Below, piece after piece: positions 28,078-42,850 of a stretch of 43,909 nt of DNA (positions are counted from its first letter, which is position 1; every line of letters starts with the position of its first letter). A program made the position numbers and the translations under genes. Source of the stretch: Spirochaetales bacterium (GTDB taxonomy: Bacteria > Spirochaetota > Spirochaetia > JC444 > Marispirochaetaceae); the NCBI GenBank assembly GCA_016935695.1, contig JAFGQL010000124.1:1-43909 (forward strand), in the 5' to 3' direction. The notes below the pieces were generated by a model that did not search any database, was not told the DNA's origin, and saw only the letters and a program-made list of their open reading frames with translations.

Positions 28078-28602
28078 TCAATGTCTGGTCAGGATAAACG
28101 ACCCGGTGAAATGATGATAGGGAGAAAACGAATGCAATTCAATTGAATCCGAATTAATGTGGTATCGGATTATGAGTTCTGCTGTCGGCCATCTCCACGC
28201 TGTCCAGATGATATAAACGAGAAACAGCGCCTCCAATGCCTCGTAGAATCTCCAGTAAACCCAGCTATCCGTTTCACCCATGAACTGGGTCGCAACTAAA
28301 ACGAGAATATAAAAGAAGCCGAAAACTATGTTTACGATACGATTTACACCGGCTTTGAGAATTAACGACAAAAGAACCATGAATCCGGGCAGCGTCATCA
28401 ACGCGGCTGCGGAGAAAAGCATTGCCTGGTTGAAGGTAATGCCGCCGATACTTCCGCCTACCGGTTCCGCCACGTGGCCGGGTTGAAACATGGACAGGAT
28501 ATCATTGTAGATATACAGAAACATCAAAGCTACCTACAGCAATGCAAGCTTTACTTTTACATTCACTTTCCGATCGTCACGGACGGTTTTGGTTTTTTCC
28601 AT
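28078..28602 (-). pseudogene. DUF6326-like small membrane protein, interrupted by a stop codon
   Basis: Reading from ATG 28602 gives 174 residues (MEKTKTVRDDRKVNVKVKLA...) with four membrane helices, resembling small DUF6326-type proteins. Codon 23 is TAG (28534-28536) where the partial copy at 33416-33418 has TGG (Trp), so a single G-to-A change has interrupted the frame. Downstream of the stop the frame is intact to 28078, and re-initiation at TTG 28527 could still make the last 149 residues. The function of the family is unknown. The recognition of the family rests on memory of its pattern. Confidence 0.7.
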
Positions 28603-28709
28603 TTTTTTGTCATCAAAGAATTACTTACCTCGAATTGGGAAATCTGTTACAGAACATTAACGGAATCAATATTATATTTAAAGTGATAACTGGATATAAC
28701 AAACCCTTC
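28475..28709. repeat. Direct repeat flanking the polysaccharide cassette, left copy
   Basis: About 235 bp are alignable by eye to 33357-33596 in the same orientation, with scattered substitutions and small indels. The segment covers the first 43 codons of the DUF6326-like gene, its leader, and the last codons of a GNAT gene: on the minus strand EGFVISSYHFKYNID is still readable next to 28680-28709. The GNAT gene itself is missing here. Confidence 0.75.
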
Positions 28710-29110: not shown

Positions 29111-30778
29111 ATGAGTAAACCTGATATGAAAGTAGTAAAAAGGATAGTATTGTTTTTTGCCGCAGTTCTGATATTTTCCTGCAGCATACAGTTGGGATTG
29201 CCGGATGATGATTCCGGGAGTACTTCCTGGGAACCTGATTCGGAAATCGATTATTCCCTGCTGCCTTCAGGAAGCGCGGGCGACTGGACCAGCGCCGGAG
29301 TGGAGGGCGGAATCCCCGACTATCCCTTTAGCGTGGATGTTCGCGGGTACGGGGCGGTTGGCGACGGATCCGCAGATGATACCGCAGCCATTCAGGCGGC
29401 CATGGCCGCATGCGTTCCGGGTCAGGCTGTCTATTTCCCTCAAGGCAGTTACCGAACCACATCGACGCTTCGAATCACCGCTTCCATCGTGTTAAGAGGA
29501 GAGGGACCGGAACTTTCCCATATTATATCGAACCATTCCGGTGCGGCCGTTTTAATTCTTTCGGATTATGCGGGGATTGAGGATGTTCATGTGCATACCG
29601 AAGGTCAGACTTTTGTCGGCTACAGCGGAGAAAAGATAACCTTCACCGATGTTTCCAATTCATGGGTCCGAAATATTGAAACCAGCGGATACACAGGCAT
29701 GCATGTTTTGCTGAACGGAACAACTCACTGCGAAGTGCGTGACAGCTACCTACACAACAGCCTGGAAGATACTTCCATCTGGTTTGATGATGGTGAATAT
29801 TTCAGCTCTTATGGAATCCATATTAATGGAGGCGGGGCAAGCTATAACCTGGTGGAAAACAATATAGTTGACTGGTTTCGTCACAATATGCTGATTCAGG
29901 AATTCGATAATACAGATATGCTTCACAATGTTTTCGCCTATAATTTCTGCTGGTATACTTTTACCCACTCAGATACTTCACCATATTCATCTACTACCTC
30001 AATGGAATTCCATAACGGGGCTGTACAGTTTTCCCTTGTGGAAGGAAATGTGTACGAGCAGGGAGGATTCCAGGGGAGCGGAAATCATCAGAAGAATTCC
30101 ATATTCAGAAACAGAATCAACAACGGCGGCCAGGGAACGGGAAGCGCGTCTTCACATATTTACGTAATCGGAAACGAATTTACAGAGATAAAACATCCAG
30201 ACTCCTCTTCCGCGCGATACGGAAATACTGCACAAGATATAGATGCCTCCGAATCGGACATCGGGCACGGCAATTATTCGATAAATCCGTCGAGAGGGAT
30301 CGAATGGGATCCCGCAATCGCCAATCACAGAATACCCGCTTCCTGGTATCTGCATGAACGGCCGGAATGGTTCGGCGATCTGGACTGGCCCTGCTACGGC
30401 GGCGACCTGATGGAAGCGACATCGGGTAATAATATGAGACGTAATCCCGCGGAAGTGCGTTACTGGTCCATGCTGTTCCCTGAAAACGTTCCCAGCGATT
30501 TACAGATAAGTGCAGCCGGAAACGACATAACTCTGAGCTGGAACCACAGCCCTTACCAGGCGGGAAGCGGTGTCGATTATATAATCGTCCGCAGCAGAGA
30601 TAATGAGAATTTTCATCGTGTTGGAGAGACCTCGATTACAACTTTTCACGACTCAAACCTGGATCCGGGAAGTTATCATTATTATGTACGAGCGCGGAAT
30701 AATTACGGCGGAATTGACGGAAGCGGCCCCGGCGGTGAATCCTCTGCGTCTGATACGGTAACGGTAACGTTGCCGTGA
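29111..30778 (+). CDS. Secreted beta-helix (pectate-lyase-3-like) lipoprotein with Fn3 domain
   Basis: The 555-residue lipoprotein has a signal ending in LIFSC. The core starts with the pectate-lyase-superfamily opening FSVDVRGYGAVGDGSADDTA and FPQGSYRTTSTLRITASIVL, then a right-handed beta-helix with N/G-rich turns (about 75-430). The C-terminal about 90 residues (VPSDLQISAAGNDITLSWNH ... SGSYHYYVRARNNY type) form a fibronectin III module. Such proteins bind or cleave acidic polysaccharides; the substrate is unknown. It is the first of three lipoprotein genes on the plus strand (29.1-33.0 kb) that may act on the same glycan. Confidence 0.8.
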   Translation: MSKPDMKVVKRIVLFFAAVLIFSCSIQLGLPDDDSGSTSWEPDSEIDYSLLPSGSAGDWTSAGVEGGIPDYPFSVDVRGYGAVGDGSADDTAAIQAAMAACVPGQAVYFPQGSYRTTSTLRITASIVLRGEGPELSHIISNHSGAAVLILSDYAGIEDVHVHTEGQTFVGYSGEKITFTDVSNSWVRNIETSGYTGMHVLLNGTTHCEVRDSYLHNSLEDTSIWFDDGEYFSSYGIHINGGGASYNLVENNIVDWFRHNMLIQEFDNTDMLHNVFAYNFCWYTFTHSDTSPYSSTTSMEFHNGAVQFSLVEGNVYEQGGFQGSGNHQKNSIFRNRINNGGQGTGSASSHIYVIGNEFTEIKHPDSSSARYGNTAQDIDASESDIGHGNYSINPSRGIEWDPAIANHRIPASWYLHERPEWFGDLDWPCYGGDLMEATSGNNMRRNPAEVRYWSMLFPENVPSDLQISAAGNDITLSWNHSPYQAGSGVDYIIVRSRDNENFHRVGETSITTFHDSNLDPGSYHYYVRARNNYGGIDGSGPGGESSASDTVTVTLP

Positions 30779-30902
30779 ACAAAGGGATTTATGATTTCCG
30801 GCATAGCAGCAATAATAGCAGCAATAGTTAAGGCAGGATGTATGATTGGCGGGGCGGAAAGAAGTACCCCGAATTATTAGAAATCAGGGAGATGAGTTTA
30901 CA

Positions 30903-31763
30903 ATGAATAAAGTTACATTAACTACGATTATGGCTGTCCTTTTTCTGACTATTTCCTGTCTTTTGGACGGCGGTATCAAATCCGGCGATACAGAGGGCTC
31001 TGAGCCCGGGCGACAGGATATTACAATTGACGAAACAGGTTTTGAAAATGGCGCGGACGAATCGCCCTATACCCAAAACTCCTGGATAGCGGACGGTTTT
31101 GCAGTTCCCTGGGTGCAGGGCTTCGGCGAGGGCCGCGCGCACGTAGATACCGCCCAGGCATACACGGGGAACAAATCGCTCAGGATCACCTATCCCGCCG
31201 GCACTTACCTGCCTGGCCCCAACGGTGCCCAGGCCCCGTTAACCTTTACGCCGCGTGATGAAGTATATATTTCCTACCGCCTGAGGTTTTCCGACAACTT
31301 CGACTGGGGCGGCACAAATGAAGGTGGAAAACTTCCCGGGTTGGCAGGAGGCGACTATTGCAGCGGCGGGGATTCATGCAACGGAACCAACGGGTTCTCG
31401 GCCAGATTCATGTGGCGGCCTGGCGGAAGGGCGGTACTCTATCTCTACCATATGGACAAGCCGCATACCTATGGAGAAGATATGCAGCTTACAACCGGCA
31501 GCGGCGATGTGTATTTCCAGAAAGGACAATGGTACCAGATAATCGAAAGGGTGAAAATCAATACGGGCAATAATTATGACGGAGAGGTGCAGGTCTGGAT
31601 TAACGGCGAACAGGCGCTTCTCCGCACCAATATCAGATTCGTAAATAACGGGGACCAGGTGGATACCCTTTATTTCTCCACATTTCACGGAGGCAATGAC
31701 GCAAGTTGGGCTCCGTCTGTGGATTGCCATGTCTGGTATGACGATATGCGAATTTACTATTAG
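30903..31763 (+). CDS. Polysaccharide lyase family 14-like lipoprotein
   Basis: The 286-residue product has a LTISC lipobox and a jelly-roll lyase domain. VYISYRLRFSDNFDWGGTNE, GGKLPGLAGGDYCSGGDSCN and FSARFMWRPGGRAVLYLYHM are the hallmark stretch of PL14 (alginate or glucuronan lyase-like) proteins, and the end DCHVWYDDMRIYY is also typical. It should cleave a uronic-acid polymer by beta-elimination outside the cell. The start is ATG 30903 with GGGAG upstream; an earlier in-frame start would extend into the signal and remove the lipoprotein layout. The deacetylase gene follows after 9 bp. Confidence 0.82.
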   Translation: MNKVTLTTIMAVLFLTISCLLDGGIKSGDTEGSEPGRQDITIDETGFENGADESPYTQNSWIADGFAVPWVQGFGEGRAHVDTAQAYTGNKSLRITYPAGTYLPGPNGAQAPLTFTPRDEVYISYRLRFSDNFDWGGTNEGGKLPGLAGGDYCSGGDSCNGTNGFSARFMWRPGGRAVLYLYHMDKPHTYGEDMQLTTGSGDVYFQKGQWYQIIERVKINTGNNYDGEVQVWINGEQALLRTNIRFVNNGDQVDTLYFSTFHGGNDASWAPSVDCHVWYDDMRIYY

Positions 31764-31772
31764 GTGTAAAGC

Positions 31773-33035
31773 ATGAAAAAAATAATAACCCGGTTCCGGT
31801 TGATTGCTTGTTGCGTGTTTTATTTGTGCGCTTGCAGCCTTGGAAATAACACAGACAAAACAGGCGGCAATCTTCCGGTCACAGTAGTTCCCGGAGAATA
31901 TCCCGATACTGAAGCCATTGTGTCTTTCAGTTATGATGACGGCTCTGACAGCTGGTACAATACAGGGTATCCGCTGTTCAATGAATACGGGTACAAAGCT
32001 ACTTTTAACGTAAACGCAGCCTGGACCCTGTACCGCAGCGACTGGGTTCTTGAAATGCATAATAACGGGTTTGAATTTGCCAGCCATTCCTATTATCACG
32101 AAACAGGGGTAACCGACGAAAACGTGGAAAACATGAAATTGCTGCTTGATGGAATGGGCATCTCGCCAACAGGATTTGTCGGGCCCGGCGCCGCCGCAAC
32201 ACCCGCATGGGGGCATGATGAAGTGAATATTGTGAAACAATACCACAGATATTATTCCCAGGGATATTCCCACACAAATGTACCGGAAGGTTTGTCACTT
32301 CCTTTCGACAAATACCTTCTGGGTCGGTGGGGTTTGTCGAACAGTATTACAGCGGCCAGAATTACCCGGGCGCTTGAGGATTCCGCAGCAAACAACACCT
32401 GGATAATTTTCAGCGGGCATACGATCGGAGGCATCTGGATCGAAGATGACCCGGTCAATGGCGGCGGAAGCGATCAAAGCCCGGCGTTGATTGAATTCGT
32501 GTTTTCCGAAATCGAGCGCTTGGGAATAGCTGTTAAGACAGTGGAAGAGGTTGTTGATATGTATCATCCCCGGGGAGCGGTAATTGATTGCTCATCCAAT
32601 GAGCATCAGGAACCCGATTTAACTTATTTCGAGGAAGGGGATCCGCAAAGCATGGATCCTGCAGTCTGGAACGAATACTGGCATACAACTACCTGGTCGG
32701 GACCGCGATTCGTCGGGAATCCTGCGGTTTATTGCCACACCTCCAATGACAGCCTGCCTCTGATGCGATTCACCCTGTCAATTCCGAACGGAACATACCG
32801 GGTGCGCGCCGAATTAATACCGTATGACACAGGAAGGACCTACCGGGTTTTCTATTCCTTTGATTCATCCAATCCATCACAGCTTTCTGTGGACATTTCA
32901 GAAAAAACCGACGCCGATCTGGGAACAGTCACGGTGACAGACGGCGAACTCAATCTGTATACGCAAAACGCTGACGTGGTATCCGGCGCCGAAGGATTCG
33001 TGGGATGGGCTTACGTAAAGCTATTTCATTTTTAA
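31773..33035 (+). CDS. NodB-type polysaccharide deacetylase lipoprotein
   Basis: The 420-residue lipoprotein (YLCAC lipobox) has a polysaccharide-deacetylase domain with metal and catalytic motifs IVSFSYDDGSDSW (SxDDG) and FASHSYYHET (HSxxH), and a later FSGHTIGG. The last about 130 residues form a beta-rich module (GPRFVGNPAVYCHTSNDSLP ... EGFVGWAYVKLFHF) that looks like a carbohydrate-binding domain. It would remove N- or O-acetyl groups from a glycan, helping the adjacent lyase. It ends the plus-strand cassette. Confidence 0.85.
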   Translation: MKKIITRFRLIACCVFYLCACSLGNNTDKTGGNLPVTVVPGEYPDTEAIVSFSYDDGSDSWYNTGYPLFNEYGYKATFNVNAAWTLYRSDWVLEMHNNGFEFASHSYYHETGVTDENVENMKLLLDGMGISPTGFVGPGAAATPAWGHDEVNIVKQYHRYYSQGYSHTNVPEGLSLPFDKYLLGRWGLSNSITAARITRALEDSAANNTWIIFSGHTIGGIWIEDDPVNGGGSDQSPALIEFVFSEIERLGIAVKTVEEVVDMYHPRGAVIDCSSNEHQEPDLTYFEEGDPQSMDPAVWNEYWHTTTWSGPRFVGNPAVYCHTSNDSLPLMRFTLSIPNGTYRVRAELIPYDTGRTYRVFYSFDSSNPSQLSVDISEKTDADLGTVTVTDGELNLYTQNADVVSGAEGFVGWAYVKLFHF

Positions 33036-33339
33036 GCAAATGTTTTTATTTTAACTATAGCTGACGTTTTAATTTTCTATATTACAAATAAAGGCACGAA
33101 GCGCTTTCCTCTTAACATAAACAAGATGAGCAATGTGACACAAAACCATCCAGCACTGATGTGGCCTGACTTCTTTGGCTGCTATAATGTTTCCCTTTTG
33201 GTTTTACGCAATTTAACAGCCGCAGGCCATTTCTGATTTCTATTTTCTTTGTTCCAACTGTTTGATAACGCCTCCAAATCCGTCCCAAAGGATTTGCCTG
33301 GTGCTTGTTTATGCTATCTTGCAATCCCTTCTTTCATAT
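33036..33339. other. Spacer without a supported gene
   Basis: This stretch contains a 70-codon minus-strand frame (33112-33324) with no recognisable domain, no good ribosome binding site and an unusual Ser/Arg-rich composition. It could be a remnant of something inserted here. No terminator hairpin was recognised after the deacetylase gene. Confidence 0.3.
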
Positions 33340-33484
33340 TCTTTTTCAGCCATGGATGGCCGGGCTGAAACATGAACAGGATATCATTGTAGATATACAG
33401 GAACATCAGGGCCACCCACAGCAGGGCCAGTTTGACTTTTACATTCACTTTCCTATCGTCACGGACGGTTTTTGTTTTTTCGAT
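33340..33484 (-). pseudogene. N-terminal fragment of a DUF6326-like membrane protein gene
   Basis: The minus strand encodes EKTKTVRDDRKVNVKVKLAL LWVALMFLYIYNDILFMFQPGH, almost identical to the start of the gene at 28078-28602, then unrelated residues. The initiation codon is ATC (33482-33484) where the other copy has ATG, and the last three of its four membrane helices are missing. Trp23 is intact. It sits directly downstream of an intact GNAT gene, which appears to be the ancestral gene order. Confidence 0.7.
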
Positions 33485-33596
33485 TTTTTACTCCCCAAAG
33501 AAATGCTATCGCATGAGAAGGAAAAACTGTTACAGAAAATTCACGGAATCAGTCTATCTGATACTTGAAATGATAACTTGAAATGACGAACCCTTC
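33357..33596. repeat. Direct repeat flanking the polysaccharide cassette, right copy
   Basis: This segment aligns with 28475-28709 in the same orientation. It comprises the head of the DUF6326-like fragment and the 3' end of the GNAT coding sequence. The two copies lie about 4.88 kb apart and bracket the SGNH remnant and the three polysaccharide-active lipoprotein genes. Confidence 0.75.
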
Positions 33597-34001
33597 GCGG
33601 AAATAGAACTTATGGGCACCTTCACGCTGTACCCCGGAATCCAGATGGACTTCCCCGCAGCCCTCTTCTTTTGCATGTTCAATCAAAAACCTCAAGAGGT
33701 TACCGCCGGCACCCTTCGACCGGAATTCAGGAACCGTCACCAGATCATCGATGTACAGGTGCCTGCCCCACGCCAGCTTCGACTGGATGCGGAAGCCGGC
33801 AGCGGCAAGAATAACCCCGCCTGCTTCTGCGTACGCGACCTGGAATCCCTCCTGTATCTGTTCGTCAATACGGCGTTTGAGCTCTGCAGGTTCAATGTTC
33901 GGCCTCAAATACCTGTAGACCGAGACGATTGCGTCCCAATCGCTGGAATTGTCCGCGATATTGTTGTTCATTGTAAGAATATACTTTCGGAGCAGTTGCA
34001 T
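33549..34001 (-). CDS. GNAT-family N-acetyltransferase
   Basis: This 150-residue protein has the acetyl-CoA-binding motif A as LYIDDLVTVPEFRSKGAGGN LLRFLIEHA and the motif B region EVHLDSGVQREGAHKFYFRE GF, standard for small GNAT enzymes. The acceptor substrate is unknown. A second possible start at 33971 (MNNNIADNS) would be equally close to the family length; neither has a clear ribosome binding site. Its last 16 codons are duplicated at 28680-28709. It likely once formed an operon with DUF6326 and the amidohydrolase gene. Confidence 0.85.
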   Translation of the reverse strand: MQLLRKYILTMNNNIADNSSDWDAIVSVYRYLRPNIEPAELKRRIDEQIQEGFQVAYAEAGGVILAAAGFRIQSKLAWGRHLYIDDLVTVPEFRSKGAGGNLLRFLIEHAKEEGCGEVHLDSGVQREGAHKFYFREGFVISSYHFKYQID

Positions 34002-34128
34002 GGAGAAGCGCTATCGTATGAGTTTTAGGTGAGAAGCACCGGCCGGTCACGTAAATGAGTGGGAACGTAAAGTACATAGAACATAGGATTAACCGATTGG
34101 GAGGTTGTCGGATGCCGATTGAGGGGAG

Positions 34129-34147
34129 TTATGCGAAATTCGCATAA
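34129..34147. promoter_or_regulatory. Operator-like palindrome upstream of the GNAT gene
   Basis: TTATGCGAAATTCGCATAA has perfect 9-bp arms around one base, 128 bp upstream of the GNAT start. No second copy was seen in the window, and the binding protein is unknown. Confidence 0.4.
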
Positions 34148-34208
34148 AATGCCGCCGGCAGTATCTGTATATATAACTCACCTTAACTGGTCAATGAAGC
34201 ATAAACTT

Positions 34209-34372
34209 TCAGGATTCACATGGTGACTTCAGGGCCATCATCACTTGAGCGGTCAGATCCCAGGAACCCATGCTGTACACATACAACAGTAGTGCTGAGA
34301 CGGAATACCACAGTAGCCACAAGACGCGCACAAAAACATCAGAAGCCTTTTTCTGAATAACCTCTTGCTGCG
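34209..34372 (-). pseudogene. Possible remnant of a membrane protein
   Basis: An open stretch on the minus strand, without a start codon, encodes a hydrophobic sequence (VRVLWLLWYSVSALLLYVYS followed by MGSWDLTAQVMM) and a stop at 34209-34211. It looks like coding sequence with one membrane helix rather than random DNA, but I do not recognise the family. The remainder of the 34002-34428 spacer shows only the palindrome at 34129-34147. Confidence 0.25.
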
Positions 34373-34428
34373 TAATTCATATCACATCAGGTTGCCAGGA
34401 CTCCCTATGCCCTTATATGGTCTTGGCT

Positions 34429-36243
34429 TTACGGTACTAAAGCCAGCAGATACGGATACCCGCCGTTCGTAACGCTGCCGATGCCCCAGACATCGGTAAA
34501 ATCCCAAGCCGAAAAATTAGTCTGGGTGGTCATTTTTACACTTGTCCTGGCCAAAGCACCGTTTGTACCGGTTTTTCCACTTGTATCACTGTCGTAATAA
34601 CAACCAGTGCATGTCCCGCTGAAATTGTACCCGAGGAACCCGTTTGCATTGGATGCACCACTTACCAAGCCTGTCGAGTAACAATAGGTAACCGCAGCAT
34701 CCTGGCCAAATCCGTAAAAACCGCCTGAATAAGTACCGGTTGCAGTGACGCTGCCCCGTGCATAGCAGTCAGTCGCACTCGTATCTTCCAGCCGCCCGGA
34801 AAACCCTCCGACTTCCCCGCTGCCGCTTACCGATCCGCTCGCGTAACAGCGGTTTACACTGCCGTTTCGGATGGTGCCGGCCAGACCGCCGGTATCAGAA
34901 CCACCGGTAACATCGCCGGTTGCAAAACAGTCGCTTACATATACTTGTACCGTGGTACCGGTTGAACCGCATAGACCGATAAGCCCGCCGACATCACTTG
35001 ATGTGCAATTTATGGTACAACTTGAGGAACAGTTGCCTACCGTCCCGGTGTACATAACGCCAACAAGGCCACCGGCAGAACCTGTTCCGGTCAACGTACC
35101 TGACACACTGCAGTCGGAAATTGTTCCGGCGTAATTATCTCCGACCAGACCGCCGGTTGTGGTGGCTAAACCTGTAACCGTACACTGCAAAACGGTACAC
35201 CGGGAAACAGTTGCATTGTTTCTTATCTCGCCAGCCAGACTGCCAGTATAGTAATATCCGGTGACAGAAGGAGCTGAAAGGATGACACCCTGAACCTCTC
35301 CACCTGTAATGCTCCCGAAAAAACCATGATAATAGTCGGATGTGCGGTAGATATACAAATTGCTTATCGTATATCCCCCGCCGTACAGCACTCCGGTAAA
35401 AGCGGTTGTTCCATCGCCGATTGGTTCCCAGCCTTCCGTAGGGTCACCATAACCTGTCAAATCTATGGATGCAGCAAGAATATAACCGCCCGAAAGATTA
35501 TCCCTTATCGCATCCAGTTCATCCGCCGTGTGTACAGCGGCTAATGTCACTTCTCCGGATGTTCTTGTAAATACGGAAATTACGGTATCGTCGGAATCGT
35601 TACCCGATGTATCCACCGCGGTGAGTGTAAGCGTATATTCGGTATCTGCATCGAGTCCGCTTATCGAGCCGGTTTCAACACCGAAAATGTCCGAACTTGA
35701 TCCGTCCGAACAACTAAGTACCGCATGATCGAAATCGCCGGCAGCTGATGCCTCCCAGGTGATGCCGATATGGTCTGTTCCAACCGTAACCAGGCTGATT
35801 ATGAGAGGATCCGGAGGCGTCGAATCAGGCGTTGGTGCGACGGTTGGCGTCGGGGTCGGCGCGACGGTTGGCGTCGGGGTTGGTGCGACGGTTGGCGTCG
35901 GTGTTGGTGCGACGGTTGGCGTCGGTGTTGGTGCGACGGTTGGCGTCGGTGTCGGTACGACGGTTGGCGTCGGTGTCGGTGCGACGGTTGGCGTCGGTGT
36001 CGGTGCGACGGTTGGCGTCGGTGTTGGTGCGACGGTTGGCGTCGGCGTCGATTCCGGTGTTACTGTTGGTGTAGCCGTCTGTGTCGGAGTCGCAGTTGGC
36101 GTTGGCGAAGGCGTTGGTGCGACGGTTGGCGTCGGCGTCGCTTCCGGTTCTTCATTATTCGTACCAGTTAGATCGCAGGACCCGATATAAAAAACACAGA
36201 GCAACAAGAAGAGAAACGCAATAGCCAATCTTGCATTTTTCAT
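34429..36243 (-). CDS. GLUG-repeat surface lipoprotein on a Thr-Pro linker
   Basis: The 604-residue lipoprotein has a signal ending in FYIGSC. A linker of about 110 residues of Thr/Pro/Val/Ala follows, including nine tandem PTPTVAPT octapeptides, then an Fn3-like domain ([20 protein letters not shown] ... [12 protein letters not shown]). The rest is a long array of GLUG-type repeats ([50 protein letters not shown] and similar) with conserved Cys, ending in the usual GYPYL. GLUG arrays form beta-solenoids in adhesins and surface proteins. The start is ATG 36243 with AAGGAG 6 nt upstream, rather than an ATG 15 bp earlier that overlaps that site. Confidence 0.82.
35831..36046. repeat. 24-bp minisatellite encoding PTPTVAPT
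   Basis: Nine near-identical 24-bp units in tandem encode the octapeptide linker of the GLUG lipoprotein on the minus strand. Units differ only at wobble positions and one Ala-to-Val change. Because the unit is a multiple of three, slippage would lengthen or shorten the linker without a frameshift. Confidence 0.85.
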
Positions 36244-36356
36244 TATGTCTCCTTCCAATCAGTTTTAGTATACATCACAGTTCGCTTTAGCAACTATTCC
36301 AATAGACACAGCACTCGAAGGCAAACCAGATCGTCGTATCAGGCAAAACGAAACAC

Positions 36357-37952
36357 TTAATCAGAAATTTTCCACCAGGCAATATCATCGTCCGTTATTG
36401 CGGCACCCAAGATATCAGGGTTTCCGTCATTGTCTATATCAGCGGCAAATACACCGATAGCACCGTCAAAACCGGTTGCTACGGCATGTTTGGTAAAGAC
36501 TCCATTTCCGTCATTTTCAAACCAGGAAACTTCATCCCCGCTGTTTGCGCAGCCGACAATATCGATGTCGCTGTCCCCATCCAAGTTCAATGCAAAAACG
36601 TCCTCTGCACCGGAAAATCCGGTTACCACAGAATACCTTGTAAAATTTTCGGAACCATCATTTTTCCACCACGCTATGGCATTACTCTGGTAACCAGAAG
36701 CAATAATATCTATCTCGGTGTCGCCGTCCAGATCCGCAGCATAAACCGCATTTGCAGTTGTGAAAGCGGTATCTATGTTATGTGCCGTGAAAATCTCAGA
36801 ACCATTGTTCTCCCACCAGGTGACTGAATTTTCATATGAAGATACCCCGACAATATCCATGTCACCATCCTTGTCCAGGTCGATGGCGAATGCATCACGT
36901 GCAGAATAAAACTGTGTCGGGTTTATTAGGGTATGTTGTGTAAATACCCCGGTTCCGTCATTTTCCCACCATAAAATATCACCATCGAAGCTTGCAAGGC
37001 TTATGATGTCTATATCCGCGTCACCGTCTATGTCGGCCACAGAAACACTATTGGACCAGGTAATGGATGTTGAAATCAAATGCTTTGTGAAAGTCTCGTC
37101 GCCATCATTTTCATACCAGGCAACTGCACTGTCATTGCGCGCTGTACCGACAATATCTATATACGTATCACCGTTCAGATCAGCCGCGGCAACAGAATTG
37201 GCAGCGTTAAATGCTGCATCCACAGTATGGGCAGATAGATTACCGGTACCGTCATTTTCCCACCAGACAATCATGTTTTCCATTTGTGAGGAACCAACTA
37301 CATCAATATCTCCATCACTATCAACGTCAGTCGCAAAAAGGCCAACTGCCCCATCAAAATCGGCGTCAATAATATGTTCAACTGGAGTAATGAGTGTCGG
37401 TGTTGCTGTCGGCGTGGGTGTCGGAGTCGCAGTCGGCGTCGCAGTCGGAGTCGCAGTCGGAGTCGCAGTCGGCGTCGCAGTCGGTGTCGCAGTCGGTGTC
37501 GCAGTCGGTGTTGGAGTCGGAGTCGCAGTCGGAGTCGCAGTCGGTGTCGCAGTCGGTGTTGGAGTCGGTGTTGGAGTCGGTGTTGGAGTCGGTGTCGCAG
37601 TCGGTGTCGCAGTCGGTGTCGCAGTCGCAGTCGGTGTCGCAGTCGGTGTTGGAGTCGGTGTCGGTGTCGGAGTGGCTGTCGGAGTCGGAGTGGCTGTCGG
37701 AGTCGGCGTGGCTGTCGGAGTCACCGTTGGAGTAGCGGTCGGCGTCAACGTAGGTGTTGCCGTTGGTGTAGAGGTCGGCGTAGGCGTTGGTGTCGCAGTC
37801 GGTGTCGGTGTTGGCGTCGGTGTCGGGTGCTCAGTGGGTAATGGTGTTGGGCTTTCTTCCTCTTGCCCGGAAACAAGATCACAACTATGAAGAAAAAGAA
37901 TGCTGGAAATTACAATTGAAAAAACAAACCAGAGTCGCGAGTTATTTGTCAT
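36357..37952 (-). CDS. Seven-bladed FG-GAP/VCBS propeller lipoprotein on a Thr-Pro linker
   Basis: The 531-residue lipoprotein has a signal ending in FLHSC, then about 150 residues of almost pure Thr-Pro-Ala linker (residues about 36-185). Seven tandem repeats of about 46 residues follow, each with a calcium-type loop such as [24 protein letters not shown] or [10 protein letters not shown] and a strand ending in WWENDGTG. Seven such FG-GAP/VCBS units predict a complete seven-bladed beta-propeller, similar to integrin-alpha heads. No catalytic motif is seen; ligand or surface binding is likely. It is a near neighbour of the GLUG lipoprotein and shares its linker design. GAGGG precedes the start. 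Confidence 0.85.
37391..37845. repeat. Short-period minisatellite encoding a (TPTPTA)-type linker
   Basis: About 450 bp of imperfect 6-, 12- and 18-bp repeats (GTCGGT, GTCGCA, GTTGGA units on the plus strand) encode the Thr-Pro-Ala linker of the propeller lipoprotein on the minus strand. All visible units keep the reading frame. Confidence 0.85.
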
Positions 37953-38055
37953 ATGTTTCCCTCACAAGCATAGAATTATTGGATGCTGTATGTATCCATA
38001 AAGAACAGGACAACCACAATTGTTTCAGTTACTGCACATTAAAAAAGATTTTTCA

Positions 38056-38073
38056 ATCATACTTTTGTATGAT
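38056..38073. promoter_or_regulatory. Shared palindrome upstream of the propeller lipoprotein gene
   Basis: ATCATACTTTTGTATGAT has perfect 7-bp arms and a TTTT centre, 104 bp upstream of the gene at 36357-37952. A 19-base match including it recurs at 40659-40677, upstream of another lipoprotein gene. The surrounding 37953-38251 spacer is AT-rich and shows no gene. Confidence 0.6.
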
Positions 38074-38251
38074 CTCGTAATTATTTAATAGCTTTTTAGT
38101 TTTTGTTGGAATTATTGTACATCTTTCACGTGAGTGAATACTGTCTATAAATTTGACAATCCGGTTGAATCGATTTTTCTGCTCATTTATAAAATCCATT
38201 GATCAATAAAAATTGCAATTTATCTGTTTGAAGGAGTATGCCACGAATCGG

Positions 38252-39046
38252 CTATTTTTTTAGCTGCTTTCTCGCATTATATAAAGAGTCCGCAACGGCC
38301 TTTTCCGGTAGGCACTTTAAAAGACATTTTAATAAGCGCAATTTCATCTTTGGAATAATTAGTCGCTTGCCGTTCATGAATTCTTTATAGGCAATAACCG
38401 CTAATTCTTTCGGTTCCATCATTCTCAGTTTTGAACTTTCTATTCCTGCCGTTTTCTGAAAACCCGTCCTTACATCTGCCGGACACAGCACACTAACGGC
38501 TACCCCTTTTGGCTTCAACTCGCTTGCAATCGCCTGCGAAAAAGAATACACATATGACTTTGAAGCTGCATAAACCGGAATATACGGACCAGGCAACAAG
38601 CCTGCCATAGAGGATACATTGAGAATGCGGGCACCTTCTGTATCATTCAGTTGATTCAAGAACATCCAGGTCATGAAAGTAAGACTTTTTACATTCAGAT
38701 CGATCAGTTCCATTTGTTTTTGTATGTTAACATTCATAAACTCGCCATAATTTGCAAAACCCGCATTATTGATCAATATACGGGGTGATATGTTTTCATT
38801 TTTTAATATGCGGAAAATGTATTCTATATTTTCAATATTTTGTAAGTCATATGCAAAGATACGAACGTCTGTATGATGCTCAGCTTCAATCTCATTTCGT
38901 AAAAGGGCTAAGGCATGTTCTGTTCTGGAAATTAAAAGCAGATTGAAACCATTCTTCGCAAAAACTTTTGATAATTCCAGTCCGATCCCGCTTGAAGCAC
39001 CGGAAATCATTACGAAATCTTTCTTACTCATTCTTCTGGTTACCAT
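38252..39046 (-). CDS. Short-chain dehydrogenase/reductase
   Basis: The 264-residue SDR has the cofactor motif SGASSGIG near residue 15, the NNAGFANYG motif, the catalytic Ser in ILNVSSMAG and the active-site pair in YAASKSYV (YxxxK). The length and the C-terminal segment (KRLIIPKMKLRLLKCLLKCL) match the DltE/YqjQ-like group of membrane-associated classical SDRs. The substrate is unknown. A start at 39031 (MSKKDF) is as plausible as the one given. It stands alone between two lipoprotein genes. Confidence 0.88.
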   Translation of the reverse strand: MVTRRMSKKDFVMISGASSGIGLELSKVFAKNGFNLLLISRTEHALALLRNEIEAEHHTDVRIFAYDLQNIENIEYIFRILKNENISPRILINNAGFANYGEFMNVNIQKQMELIDLNVKSLTFMTWMFLNQLNDTEGARILNVSSMAGLLPGPYIPVYAASKSYVYSFSQAIASELKPKGVAVSVLCPADVRTGFQKTAGIESSKLRMMEPKELAVIAYKEFMNGKRLIIPKMKLRLLKCLLKCLPEKAVADSLYNARKQLKK

Positions 39047-39082
39047 CTACAGACCATCATGTGCGTTCATAATGTGTATCCA

Positions 39083-40417
39083 TTAAAACCAGTTCATCTC
39101 AAGTGTTTGCATGGCAACGCCATCAATGCCGTCTTCTCCCGCATTGGCGTGCATCCCGCCCAGTCCTGCAGACCCCGGTACATAGATAACGGTATCGATA
39201 ACAGGGATGGTCCCGTAATAGAGTATACCCACAGAGATACCGCCTGCGGCGCCGCCGGACGCCCCGCCGGTTCCTCCGCGACCTCCATTACCTCCGTATG
39301 TTGCGACAAATCCCGCACCAAGGCCTCCGGAACCGCCGTATTGACCAGATTGCCCGAAAACGCCGTTTCCGCCATTTCCCGCGATACCGGTTTCGAGTAT
39401 GGAATCGGATATTTGTATGTCCGACTGATAGGAACAAACCGCGATACTGGCGCCTCCGCCCTGAGACGGTCCCGCACCTGCGCCGCCGCCTCCACCTGGA
39501 GCTCCGCTGCCACCGCCGCCGCTTGAGTCTCCGGAACAGCCTCCCCCTCCGCCCTGGCCGACTGTGCCGTCCTCTCCCGCTCCGCCGGGGGCTGCGGTCC
39601 AGCCGGTTGCTGACATCGTGCCCGGGACTGTCGCCGAAACGCCGTCTGAGCCGTCGCTGCCGTCGGCTCCGTCGGAACCCGGAAGACCGCTGCCTGCCGT
39701 GCTTCCCTGGCCGCCAGCTCCAGCGGGAAAACCGTTCAGTCCGTTTTCGCCGCCTGCGGCGGGGTCACCTCCTGCTCCACCTGTACTAGTTTCCCCGTTT
39801 ACGGAAGTGTATGTAACTGCTGCTCCGCCAGTCGATGCGTCGCCATCATTTCCGTCGGGAACCGTCCCGAACACATAACCCGAGAGCTGTGAAACGGCGC
39901 CGTTGACACCGTTTCCTGTAAACACTGTAACTCCCTGCAGAACAATATTGTTTGAGTTCGCAACCAAAAGCCCGATGCTGTTTTCACCGGCTGCACTGCC
40001 GGATGCCACTTCCAATGAAAGGTTTAATAATTCGAAACCGTCTATCTCGCTGAGTACAAAACCCGTGGAGTCCGTTATTATCAAGCATGCAGTCGCTGAA
40101 GCATCTTCATCCCATTCCGCATTGTATCCGCCGGTAATTACCAGATTGTCAGCCGTGATGGTCAATGTTGAATCGTATATATCTTCAGTCGTGTCCAGGA
40201 AAATTGAGTCGCCCTCCGCGGCAATGGACAGGGCCATTGTCAGTGTCGCAAAAGGCAAGGCTTGCGAGCCGTTGCCCGAGGTATCGCTGCCGGAAGCAGA
40301 TACAAAAATACCATCAAGATCGCCGTCTACTGAATCCTTTGAAGAATTGCTACAAGCGAAGAAAAGTGAACCGATAAGTAGGGATAGACTCATAACAAGA
40401 CCGAACCATTTTCTCAT
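39083..40417 (-). CDS. Glycine-rich beta-helix-like lipoprotein
   Basis: The 444-residue product has a lipobox (LFFAC), then the opening of a DUF1565-type parallel beta-helix (IFVSASGSDTSGNGSQALPF ATLTMALSIAAEGDSIFLDT). From about residue 190 to 410 it is dominated by Gly, Ser and Ala (GGAGGDPAAGGENGLNG, GGGGSGAPGGGGGAGAG), with embedded beta-helix turns such as SDIQISDSILETGIAGNGGN. It resembles secreted Gly-rich proteins with polyglycine-type regions and is probably a surface or matrix protein. No enzymatic motif is seen. GGAGG lies 8 nt before the start. A copy of the shared palindrome lies about 240 bp upstream. Confidence 0.78.
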   Translation of the reverse strand: MRKWFGLVMSLSLLIGSLFFACSNSSKDSVDGDLDGIFVSASGSDTSGNGSQALPFATLTMALSIAAEGDSIFLDTTEDIYDSTLTITADNLVITGGYNAEWDEDASATACLIITDSTGFVLSEIDGFELLNLSLEVASGSAAGENSIGLLVANSNNIVLQGVTVFTGNGVNGAVSQLSGYVFGTVPDGNDGDASTGGAAVTYTSVNGETSTGGAGGDPAAGGENGLNGFPAGAGGQGSTAGSGLPGSDGADGSDGSDGVSATVPGTMSATGWTAAPGGAGEDGTVGQGGGGGCSGDSSGGGGSGAPGGGGGAGAGPSQGGGASIAVCSYQSDIQISDSILETGIAGNGGNGVFGQSGQYGGSGGLGAGFVATYGGNGGRGGTGGASGGAAGGISVGILYYGTIPVIDTVIYVPGSAGLGGMHANAGEDGIDGVAMQTLEMNWF

Positions 40418-40848
40418 GCCACCACCTCCAAAACCATATAAAGTTAAACACGGATAAAAAAATATAAGCGATCAATTCTGCGCTAATCCATCAGCCCGTC
40501 TCAAGGCAGGTGCCGAAAATCATATCAGAGGTTCCTATAAGTTCTAACCTGATCCACAACCCACCCGCTCAGATCATTGTCTGAAAAATCAAATGCCTTA
40601 TAACCTATAAAGTGCATGGGAAATAATGTAAAAAAATATATTACACAAGCTGTGTTATCAATCATACTTTTGTATGACTATGATAAAATTTCACTGTATT
40701 TTAATATTTATAAAAATTACTGACCTTTCTTTTTGTGGAACTTCAGTTTTTTATTAGGCAGTATTAATTATCCGTCCTTTACATGGCTGATCAACTCAAG
40801 ATTTTTTACTCTCGTAAAGAACCCTTTATATGAAGTATTTCTAAACAT
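40418..40848. other. AT-rich spacer with regulatory palindrome
   Basis: No gene is supported in this 431-bp spacer between the Gly-rich lipoprotein gene and the GH26-like gene. It is markedly AT-rich and holds the palindrome at 40659-40677. No terminator hairpin with a T-run was recognised. Confidence 0.5.
40659..40677. promoter_or_regulatory. Shared palindrome upstream of the Gly-rich lipoprotein gene
   Basis: The 19-mer CAATCATACTTTTGTATGA is identical to 38054-38072 and contains TCATAC-TTTT-GTATGA. It is about 240 bp upstream of the gene at 39083-40417. On the minus strand it is followed by AT-rich hexamers (TTGATA, TATATT) that could be a promoter. Confidence 0.6.
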
Positions 40849-41847
40849 TCATTCCACTACCCATAATTTCTTATAATTGCTTTTAAAATTCTCTTCATTT
40901 AATATCTGCTTCCATGCAAGAGCGCTTTCCCTTGTTGCGGCTACTCTTAAATCTTCTTCTTTTATTACATCAAACCAGGCTATAGCTTTGATATTTGGAA
41001 ATTTATTTAACTGCTTCGGTAAATGACGGATCCATTCTGCACGGTTTCCTCCGTGGTTAAAGCAGGAAAACTCAGGAATCATAATCGGTTTGTCAGGGAT
41101 CTTTTTGGAAAGTAAATTATACATAGGCATGAATATCTGTTCGAACTCAGTCCATGAACTCCATTCGTAATACGTTCCCCAGTTGTATCCGTCTATTCCC
41201 AACCAATCAACATATTCATCACCGGGATAGGAAAGTATTGGATTATTCCATGGCTCGTCCGGGAAGCTGTTCTGTCCGGGTGTCCATATATATTTGACAT
41301 TTTTCACACCATTTTCCGATAGAAGATCATGGATATGCCGCCATGCACATATATATCGCGAAGGGTCCTCATTATTGTTTGCAATCCCCCAATCATACCA
41401 GTTCCCGTTAAATTCATGCATCAGTCTTATAAACAGAGGATTACCGTATTTCTTGATTCCTTCTGCCCAAGCCAGAATGTAATCATCATGATCGCCATTA
41501 ATGATGTCAACAAGAGTAATCTTTTCATCACTAAACCAGTAGTGCGGCTCCCAGGTTATGTGTGGAATTATGCCCGCGGAATAGAGATCACTGCAAACCT
41601 CCAGCGGAAATGGCTGATCCCATCCAAGGAACCAGACAGCCATGCTTATATCTTTGCCACTCTGCTTTTCAAAAATCGCGATTTTATCTGCATCAGGTGC
41701 GCCGAAGCCCAATGAAGCACCAATAAAGACAGGATGCTCAAGTATATTACCCGGCACTGCCACATTTAAAGAATCATCAGTTGGCATTCCCGTGCATGAT
41801 ATGAAAAGACAAACCACACTAAACCAAGCTGTAATTCTGTATTTCAT
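40849..41847 (-). CDS. GH26-like (beta-mannanase-type) glycoside hydrolase lipoprotein
   Basis: The 332-residue lipoprotein (LFISC lipobox) is a GH26-type TIM barrel. The acid/base Glu lies in LFIRLMHEFNGNWYDWG (about 150) and the nucleophile Glu in KPIMIPEFSCFN (about 258), both in the family's context; YVDWLGIDGYNWG is also typical. GH26 enzymes mostly cleave beta-1,4-mannan, though xylan or mixed-linkage glucan activity exists. The partial GH130 gene at the window end supports a mannan or manno-oligosaccharide role. The ribosome binding site is weak (GAGTGG). It is transcribed alone. Confidence 0.85.
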   Translation of the reverse strand: MKYRITAWFSVVCLFISCTGMPTDDSLNVAVPGNILEHPVFIGASLGFGAPDADKIAIFEKQSGKDISMAVWFLGWDQPFPLEVCSDLYSAGIIPHITWEPHYWFSDEKITLVDIINGDHDDYILAWAEGIKKYGNPLFIRLMHEFNGNWYDWGIANNNEDPSRYICAWRHIHDLLSENGVKNVKYIWTPGQNSFPDEPWNNPILSYPGDEYVDWLGIDGYNWGTYYEWSSWTEFEQIFMPMYNLLSKKIPDKPIMIPEFSCFNHGGNRAEWIRHLPKQLNKFPNIKAIAWFDVIKEEDLRVAATRESALAWKQILNEENFKSNYKKLWVVE

Positions 41848-41959
41848 ACACCACTCTTTATTTATTTCGTCTCAACACATTAATGCGATTCTAACTAATC
41901 TATGTTAATCTGGTATTGGTTCTTTCATAAAATGTGACAAGATATCAATTAATTCCAAA

Positions 41960-42850
41960 TCATGGATTTTGTTGAATAAGTTGCACCAGTTTTATCCTGC
42001 TTCCTGTATGTGTTTTCTTGTAGATGTTTGAAACATGTGTCTTAACGGTAGGCATGGTGATCTTTAGTTCATACATAATTTCCCTGTAACTGTTGCCTTT
42101 GATCAGCAATTCTGTAATCTCTTTCTCTCGACTGGAGATTTGATATTTCACAATGAAGCTTGATGATATTTGAAATCCCGGTTCATCCTTGTGCAACGGG
42201 ACCCTTATGGAGCTCCGGATGAATAACAAGTTCCAGATCATGAAAAAAAAAGGCATTATTACTGGAAGGTTTCTAAGTCTCTGTGTCAGGATGATTATCT
42301 TGAAAAAATCGAAAACAACAAACCCCGGGAACATCACAAGAAATACAATCGCCGTTGGTTTCATGAAATTGAACAGCTTTTCTTCATATGTGCTTCGGAA
42401 TGTATACAACACCGCAAATATCGAATAGAGCCCCGCCAGACTCAGCATGCTCATGATTATGTAATGGATATACGGAAAATGAAATATGAAGGCAGTAATC
42501 AATGCTGCAACTGAAAGTATTGCAAGGAATAAAAACACATTGCGGGAAAGTCGTGCAAACTGGCACTGCGTGAAGTCATTGACGAACGTGGGCAGCAGAT
42601 ACACAATGGCTATGGAACACAGATAAATGGTGAAACTAAGGATATTCCCAAGAACAGTGATATTGTCGTCCCAGAAAAAATAGTATGCAATTATGCTTAA
42701 GGTTATCACAGTCATCATGTTCGCCATGACAGCTATGTATTTTTTCAATACACCCGATTTCTCGATATGATAAAGAAAGACGGCATAAAAAATAGCAGCA
42801 ATGCCGGTGGAATACGATGCGGCATATAAGAAAAAAATGATATCTTTCAT
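41960..42850 (-). CDS. LuxR-type transcriptional regulator with seven-TM N-terminus
   Basis: The 296-residue protein has about seven hydrophobic segments in the first 215 residues and a C-terminal LuxR-type helix-turn-helix (ISSREKEITELLIKGNSYRE followed by IMYELKITMPTVKTHVSNIY). It has no receiver domain, so it is probably a membrane-bound one-component regulator that senses a signal through the helices. Such 7TM-LuxR proteins are, from memory, common in spirochaetes. It lies 112 bp from the GH26-like gene and is a candidate regulator of the lipoprotein and glycan genes. Its target site is unknown. Confidence 0.83.
   Translation of the reverse strand: MKDIIFFLYAASYSTGIAAIFYAVFLYHIEKSGVLKKYIAVMANMMTVITLSIIAYYFFWDDNITVLGNILSFTIYLCSIAIVYLLPTFVNDFTQCQFARLSRNVFLFLAILSVAALITAFIFHFPYIHYIIMSMLSLAGLYSIFAVLYTFRSTYEEKLFNFMKPTAIVFLVMFPGFVVFDFFKIIILTQRLRNLPVIMPFFFMIWNLLFIRSSIRVPLHKDEPGFQISSSFIVKYQISSREKEITELLIKGNSYREIMYELKITMPTVKTHVSNIYKKTHTGSRIKLVQLIQQNP

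Follow-up and report, generated by a model that had tools for sequence, protein, structure and literature searches.

The lux box of quorum-sensing LuxR is a 20-bp palindrome centred at -42.5, and GerE DNA-binding domains of the LuxR/FixJ/NarL type have inverted-repeat operators. Transmembrane transcription regulators (TTRs), which follow the one-component principle of ToxR and CadC and combine a DNA-binding domain with membrane segments in a single polypeptide, are enriched in Spirochaetota (Demey et al. 2023, PMC10269533), and the main text of that survey names no LuxR, GerE or operator. A literature search, largely without subscription papers, returned no description of the palindrome TCATAC-N4-GTATGA or of spirochaete membrane GerE regulators. 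Membrane transcription regulators and GerE operators are already known, while the operator and the recognition-helix signature reported here are apparently undescribed.

The locus lies in the window, which is the whole stretch of 43,909 nucleotides of DNA from an uncultured spirochaete (Spirochaetales bacterium) that was analysed. A minus-strand gene at 41960-42850 codes for a membrane LuxR protein, the candidate regulator. Its GerE helix-turn-helix is located at the C-terminus (residues 238-291, helix TMPTVKTHVSNIYKK) and matched PF00196 at 1.3e-11, with 44.4 bits against a Pfam cut-off of 23.5. The hydropathy profile placed about seven hydrophobic segments within residues 4-215 (predicted topology); an earlier note on this DNA had called the protein a 7TM-LuxR. 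A DNA-binding domain and predicted membrane segments are thereby present in one chain, as in the TTRs; the present case differs from the TTR survey in having a multi-pass membrane part with a GerE domain attached, and in coming with a proposed DNA site. The solved chains nearest to the GerE domain were response-regulator DNA-binding domains such as 4wt0, VraR, GerE and NarL. Unlike the NarL and LuxR types, the protein showed no receiver (no Response_reg match) and no autoinducer-binding domain (only GerE at E 0.01), which sets it apart from NarL-type response regulators and quorum-sensing LuxR proteins, respectively; a receiver is present in the response regulators at C37 in the same genome and in genomes G206 and G212. 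The proposed site would resemble the lux box in being a dyad of 16-20 bp near -42 with a weak -35 (here from predicted promoters), and differs from it in sequence and in having a membrane sensor instead of an autoinducer-binding domain. No ligand domain was recognised in the window protein, and a polysaccharide or envelope cue is no more than a reasonable guess for its signal, because the neighbouring genes have GH26, polysaccharide deacetylase and pectate-lyase-like folds.

The minus-strand order, from longest-ORF gene calls, was membrane LuxR, GH26-like lipoprotein, palindrome 2, Gly-rich lipoprotein, short-chain dehydrogenase, palindrome 1, FG-GAP lipoprotein and GLUG lipoprotein (to 34429). 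The GH26-like lipoprotein gene (40849-41847, minus strand; PF02156 5e-16, lipobox FISC) lies between the LuxR gene and palindrome 2 and has no palindrome in its own upstream region; its homologues were found in other phyla only and were uninformative on the palindrome. The Gly-rich lipoprotein (39083-40417, minus strand; lipobox FFAC) matched no Pfam or NCBIfam family, and no useful homologues were found in relatives. The short-chain dehydrogenase gene (38252-39046, minus strand; PF00106 3.8e-41) follows 36 bp after it and is possibly co-transcribed with it. The FG-GAP (beta-propeller) lipoprotein (36357-37952, minus strand; PF13517 4.6e-45, lipobox LHSC) contains a Thr-Pro repeat linker. Thr-Pro coding repeats of 12-bp units, at 35817-36150 and 37380-37850, are common to two neighbouring lipoprotein genes and are likely extended linkers.

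The two palindromes, described in the earlier note as an identical 19-bp element, are both exact as the 19-mer CAATCATACTTTTGTATGA at 38054-38072 and 40659-40677, and the identity reaches one base further to the left, giving the 20-bp exact repeat TCAATCATACTTTTGTATGA at 38053-38072 and 40658-40677. Palindrome 1 reads TCATACAAAAGTATGATTGA on the minus strand with the core TCATAC-AAAA-GTATGA at 38057-38072, and palindrome 2, also operator-like and on the minus strand, equals it over the 20 bp with its core at 40662-40677. Both copies precede minus-strand lipoprotein genes as the note had stated: the distance from 38053 to the start of the FG-GAP gene (37952-36357) is 101 bp, and that from 40658 to the start of the Gly-rich gene (40417-39083) is 241 bp. 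The surrounding intergenic regions (299 and 431 bp, 31% and 33% GC, respectively) share nothing else. The chance expectation of a 20-mer common to both was about 2.5e-6, 2,000 Markov shuffles produced no match longer than 16, and dinucleotide-shuffled versions of the window yielded 0.01 sites with up to 3 mismatches against the 2 seen. Identical direct repeats 2.6 kb apart with a cassette of dehydrogenase and Gly-rich lipoprotein between them could also be a duplication remnant or a recombination site, and this is extremely unlikely, given that the similarity ends sharply at 20 bp and that the motif recurs beside GerE genes of other genomes in unrelated settings that lack such repeats.

The genome of the window (2.98 Mb, 182 contigs, 82% complete) contained no third copy of the repeat within 3 mismatches. 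A search of it for TCATAC-N4-GTATGA, as the note had proposed, gave a single further exact match, and the motif is therefore not scattered. This match (C37:963) is flanked by the divergently oriented genes of a NarL-type response regulator and a histidine kinase. One-mismatch matches to the palindrome were near control level (14 against 9), and all eleven extra ones whose setting was resolved or listed were in or overlapping coding frames.

The exact palindrome was scanned in 393 Spirochaetota genomes with the reversed palindrome as control. Matches were found in 47 genomes for the palindrome and 48 for the control, which means that there is no bulk enrichment of the motif. Across the phylum, the majority of exact matches occur at background frequency and half are inside coding sequence, which counts against the operator reading. 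The 19-mer with 1 mismatch was near chance across the phylum, with 4 other genomes, one of which was G165. The difference appeared in the contexts of the distinct sites that were read: 32 of 64 palindrome sites were intergenic against 6 of 29 control sites (Fisher 0.006), and 9 of the 64 (8 independent) were within 101 bp of a GerE gene against none of the 29 (Fisher 0.029, all sites). With the window left out, 29 intergenic sites remained, and their 8 independent GerE neighbours correspond to p about 7e-10 at a base rate of about 1.1%, a rate taken from the 15 GerE genes in the genome of the window and an assumed total of ~2,700 genes, and to 8e-8 at 2%. Pfam found GerE in all of these neighbours, and HisKA_7TM, PAS or receiver parts in some.

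The order of membrane LuxR, palindrome and lipoprotein was found in G010 (L096) and G083 (L166) as in the window; the relatives available for comparison are distant. In G186 (L163) the palindrome lies between divergent membrane GerE and FG-GAP lipoprotein genes, the same kind of target as that of palindrome 1, and the FG-GAP gene (L163:3871-5196, minus strand) is divergent from two tandem membrane GerE genes. The link with lipoproteins outside the window was modest: the intergenic sites added 5 distinct lipoprotein genes downstream, and the lipobox rate was 6% of genes generally. G165 contained five palindrome copies (control none). Two of them form a tandem pair with a spacing of 37 bp ahead of a lipoprotein gene, and a related lipoprotein had its own copy. 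The spacing of 37 bp was seen at L092:8666/8703, L093:6642/6679 and L094:9181/9218, often with one mismatch in the second copy (TCATACCTTTGTACGA). The tandem arrangement suggests paired operators, and this resemblance also speaks against the reading of the palindromes as recombination sites. The genes behind the palindromes at L092:8783-10511 and L094:8402-9172 in G165 belong to a paralogous lipoprotein family with no Pfam match. At L309:812-1762 (plus strand) and L299:1525-2499 (minus strand), ABC-transporter ATPase and GerE fusions are followed by a palindrome-like site and a gene for a substrate-binding lipoprotein; the ABC-type ATPase-GerE proteins are an unusual sensor-regulator fusion.

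In a survey blind to the motif, membrane-LuxR genes were found by protein profile and the flanks of 86 genes were read; sites with up to 2 mismatches were counted in the 145 bp that follow the stop codon, with the four discovery loci omitted from the count. Results showed 7 sites in the 3' flanks against a mean of 0.66 over 90 arm orders of the same letters (Poisson 6e-6); the TCATAC arms ranked above the 89 permuted-arm palindromes, the best of which gave 4 sites. The 5' flanks contained no site with up to 2 mismatches. No exact site occurred in the survey outside the discovery loci, so the motif is degenerate there. An earlier set of 40 GerE genes gave three sites, with 0, 1 and 2 mismatches, respectively, while eight control palindromes gave none at up to 1 mismatch beside the same 40 genes. 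Generic palindromes beside GerE genes showed no clear enrichment.

The frequent position 3' of membrane-LuxR genes would also suit an RNA hairpin acting as a terminator or leader element, and both palindromes do fold with 6-8 pairs around a four-base loop at predicted energies of -7.4 and -10.6 kcal/mol, better than shuffles. Such a hairpin is very unlikely as the explanation of the repeat: neither copy was called a terminator, the stem being AT-rich with no T-run, as opposed to an intrinsic terminator, and the palindromes matched no Rfam family. The arm sequence, and not pairing alone, is kept between loci. In several linked sites one half-site is retained although the pairing is disrupted, and some copies (L163, L065, L092) have a GerE gene downstream of them or none nearby.

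A signature in the recognition helix accompanied the sites. Lys at alignment position 36 was present in 14 of 14 site-linked GerE domains against 44 of 84 unlinked ones (p 6e-4), position 37 was Thr, Ser or Gly in all 14 linked domains, and Asn at 37 was found in none of the 14 against 37 of the 84; the list of linked domains was drawn up by hand once the motif had been seen, and the helix class was also hand-chosen. Within the survey, a site was present in 6 of 30 genes of the Lys-[Thr/Ser/Gly] class against 1 of 51 others (p 0.009, which is somewhat optimistic as some survey members had gone into the definition of the class), with a mean of 0.27 for control palindromes. Helix alpha-9 and the preceding loop set specificity in the GerE family (PMC3246441).

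The window LuxR has the recognition helix MPTVKTHVSN and belongs to the Lys-Thr class, as do three further GerE proteins among the 15 GerE genes of the genome (C182:21813, C29 and C93). The second membrane LuxR at C182:21813-22733 has a 2-mismatch site (TCAATCCAAAGTATGA) 17 bp after its stop codon, the C29 gene has a 3-mismatch 3' site, and C93 has none close. The other eleven GerE genes had no 3' site with up to 3 mismatches. At C37, beside the third exact site of the genome, the helix of the response regulator carries Asp in place of Lys at position 36, which counts against the operator reading. The immediate flank of the window LuxR gene, including its 3' side, lacks a palindrome copy, the two palindromes being 1.3 and 3.9 kb downstream. 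The proposal of the earlier note that the 41960-42850 protein is the regulator is thus favoured by the matching helix and the position in the cluster and weakened by the bare flank and by the rivals of the same class. The palindromes could instead be operators of another GerE protein, either one of the C182, C29 or C93 membrane LuxR proteins or a response regulator, with the window LuxR acting elsewhere. We consider this unlikely, as both perfect sites belong to the gene cluster that begins with the window LuxR, and at other loci (L096, L164, L166) the pattern is one of local control. The window LuxR is the leading candidate reader of both sites.

The position of the palindromes was compared with that of predicted promoters. 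Of 21 oriented sites, which were hand-chosen after the motif was seen, 12 have a -10-like hexamer that begins 29-33 bp from the palindrome centre when read along the strand of the downstream gene, while other 5-bp windows over the same 21 sites gave a mean of 2.6 and a maximum of 7. An earlier unoriented count of -10-like hexamers gave 11 against 3.1. With a standard -10, the spacing of 29-33 bp places the palindrome centre at about -41 to -44 of the predicted starts, and a position near -42 would fit that of a class II activator. Palindrome 2 is abutted by promoter-like hexamers at 40633-40661 on the minus strand (TTGATA at 40661-40656, 17 nt, then TATTTT, predicted by pattern scan), and an alternative predicted -10, TATATT at 40640-40635, is 30 bp from its centre. 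Palindrome 1 had no good -10 at the expected distance.

An overlap of palindrome and promoter would also suit a GerE protein acting as a repressor, whose binding switches the lipoprotein genes off. At L087, in a Treponema-like genome, the palindrome is just downstream of a good promoter as expected of a repressor site; that site may belong to another regulator or be due to chance, because no GerE gene was present within the 3 kb examined. The centre at about -41.5 to -44.5, with a -35 box that is weak or absent in most linked promoters, fits activation, and repression is judged quite unlikely.

The palindromes are probably operators of membrane-anchored GerE one-component activators that drive lipoprotein genes, with the window LuxR as first candidate, and the site is probably the one through which spirochaete membrane LuxR regulators turn on surface-protein genes. 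The idea of the earlier note that the palindrome is the operator of a shared regulator gained support from the association with GerE genes, the helix signature and the promoter-like position in other spirochaetes. The computation shows the identity of the two repeats, their rarity, the association of the motif with GerE genes across the phylum, the helix signature and the -10 spacing; from these we infer that a GerE dimer binds, which protein is the regulator, that binding activates and does not repress, and what kind of signal is sensed. Each palindrome would be an operator to which GerE (LuxR-family) DNA-binding domains bind as a dimer. The roughly seven-helix membrane part of the 41960-42850 protein would sense an envelope or external signal, and its cytoplasmic GerE domain would bind TCATAC-NAAA-GTATGA. 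The bound dimer, ~42 bp upstream of the transcription start, would replace a good -35 box and recruit RNA polymerase; palindrome 2 would switch on its predicted target, the Gly-rich lipoprotein gene, and probably the dehydrogenase gene, while palindrome 1 would switch on the FG-GAP lipoprotein gene, its predicted target.

A wider proposal, to which we give an even chance, is a code across the spirochaete phylum, in which GerE domains with Lys-[Thr/Ser/Gly] at positions 36-37 on varied sensors (seven-helix membrane domains, HisKA_7TM, PAS, ABC-type ATPase and receiver) read TCATAC-NAAA-GTATGA directly 3' of the regulator gene and activate a neighbouring surface-lipoprotein or transporter gene. 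Lipoproteins and membrane-bound transcription regulators are abundant in spirochaetes, and with a 16-bp site and a helix signature the target genes of GerE-type membrane regulators would become predictable from sequence. How a membrane-fixed protein activates a promoter would become testable in a small defined set of loci.

Two further features of the window were observed. At 29111-42850, successive lipoprotein genes code for folds related to carbohydrates (pectate-lyase-like, polysaccharide deacetylase, GLUG, FG-GAP and GH26), and a 151-nt direct repeat, mostly non-coding, occurs at 28475-28625 and 33357-33507 with 86% identity, 4.9 kb apart.
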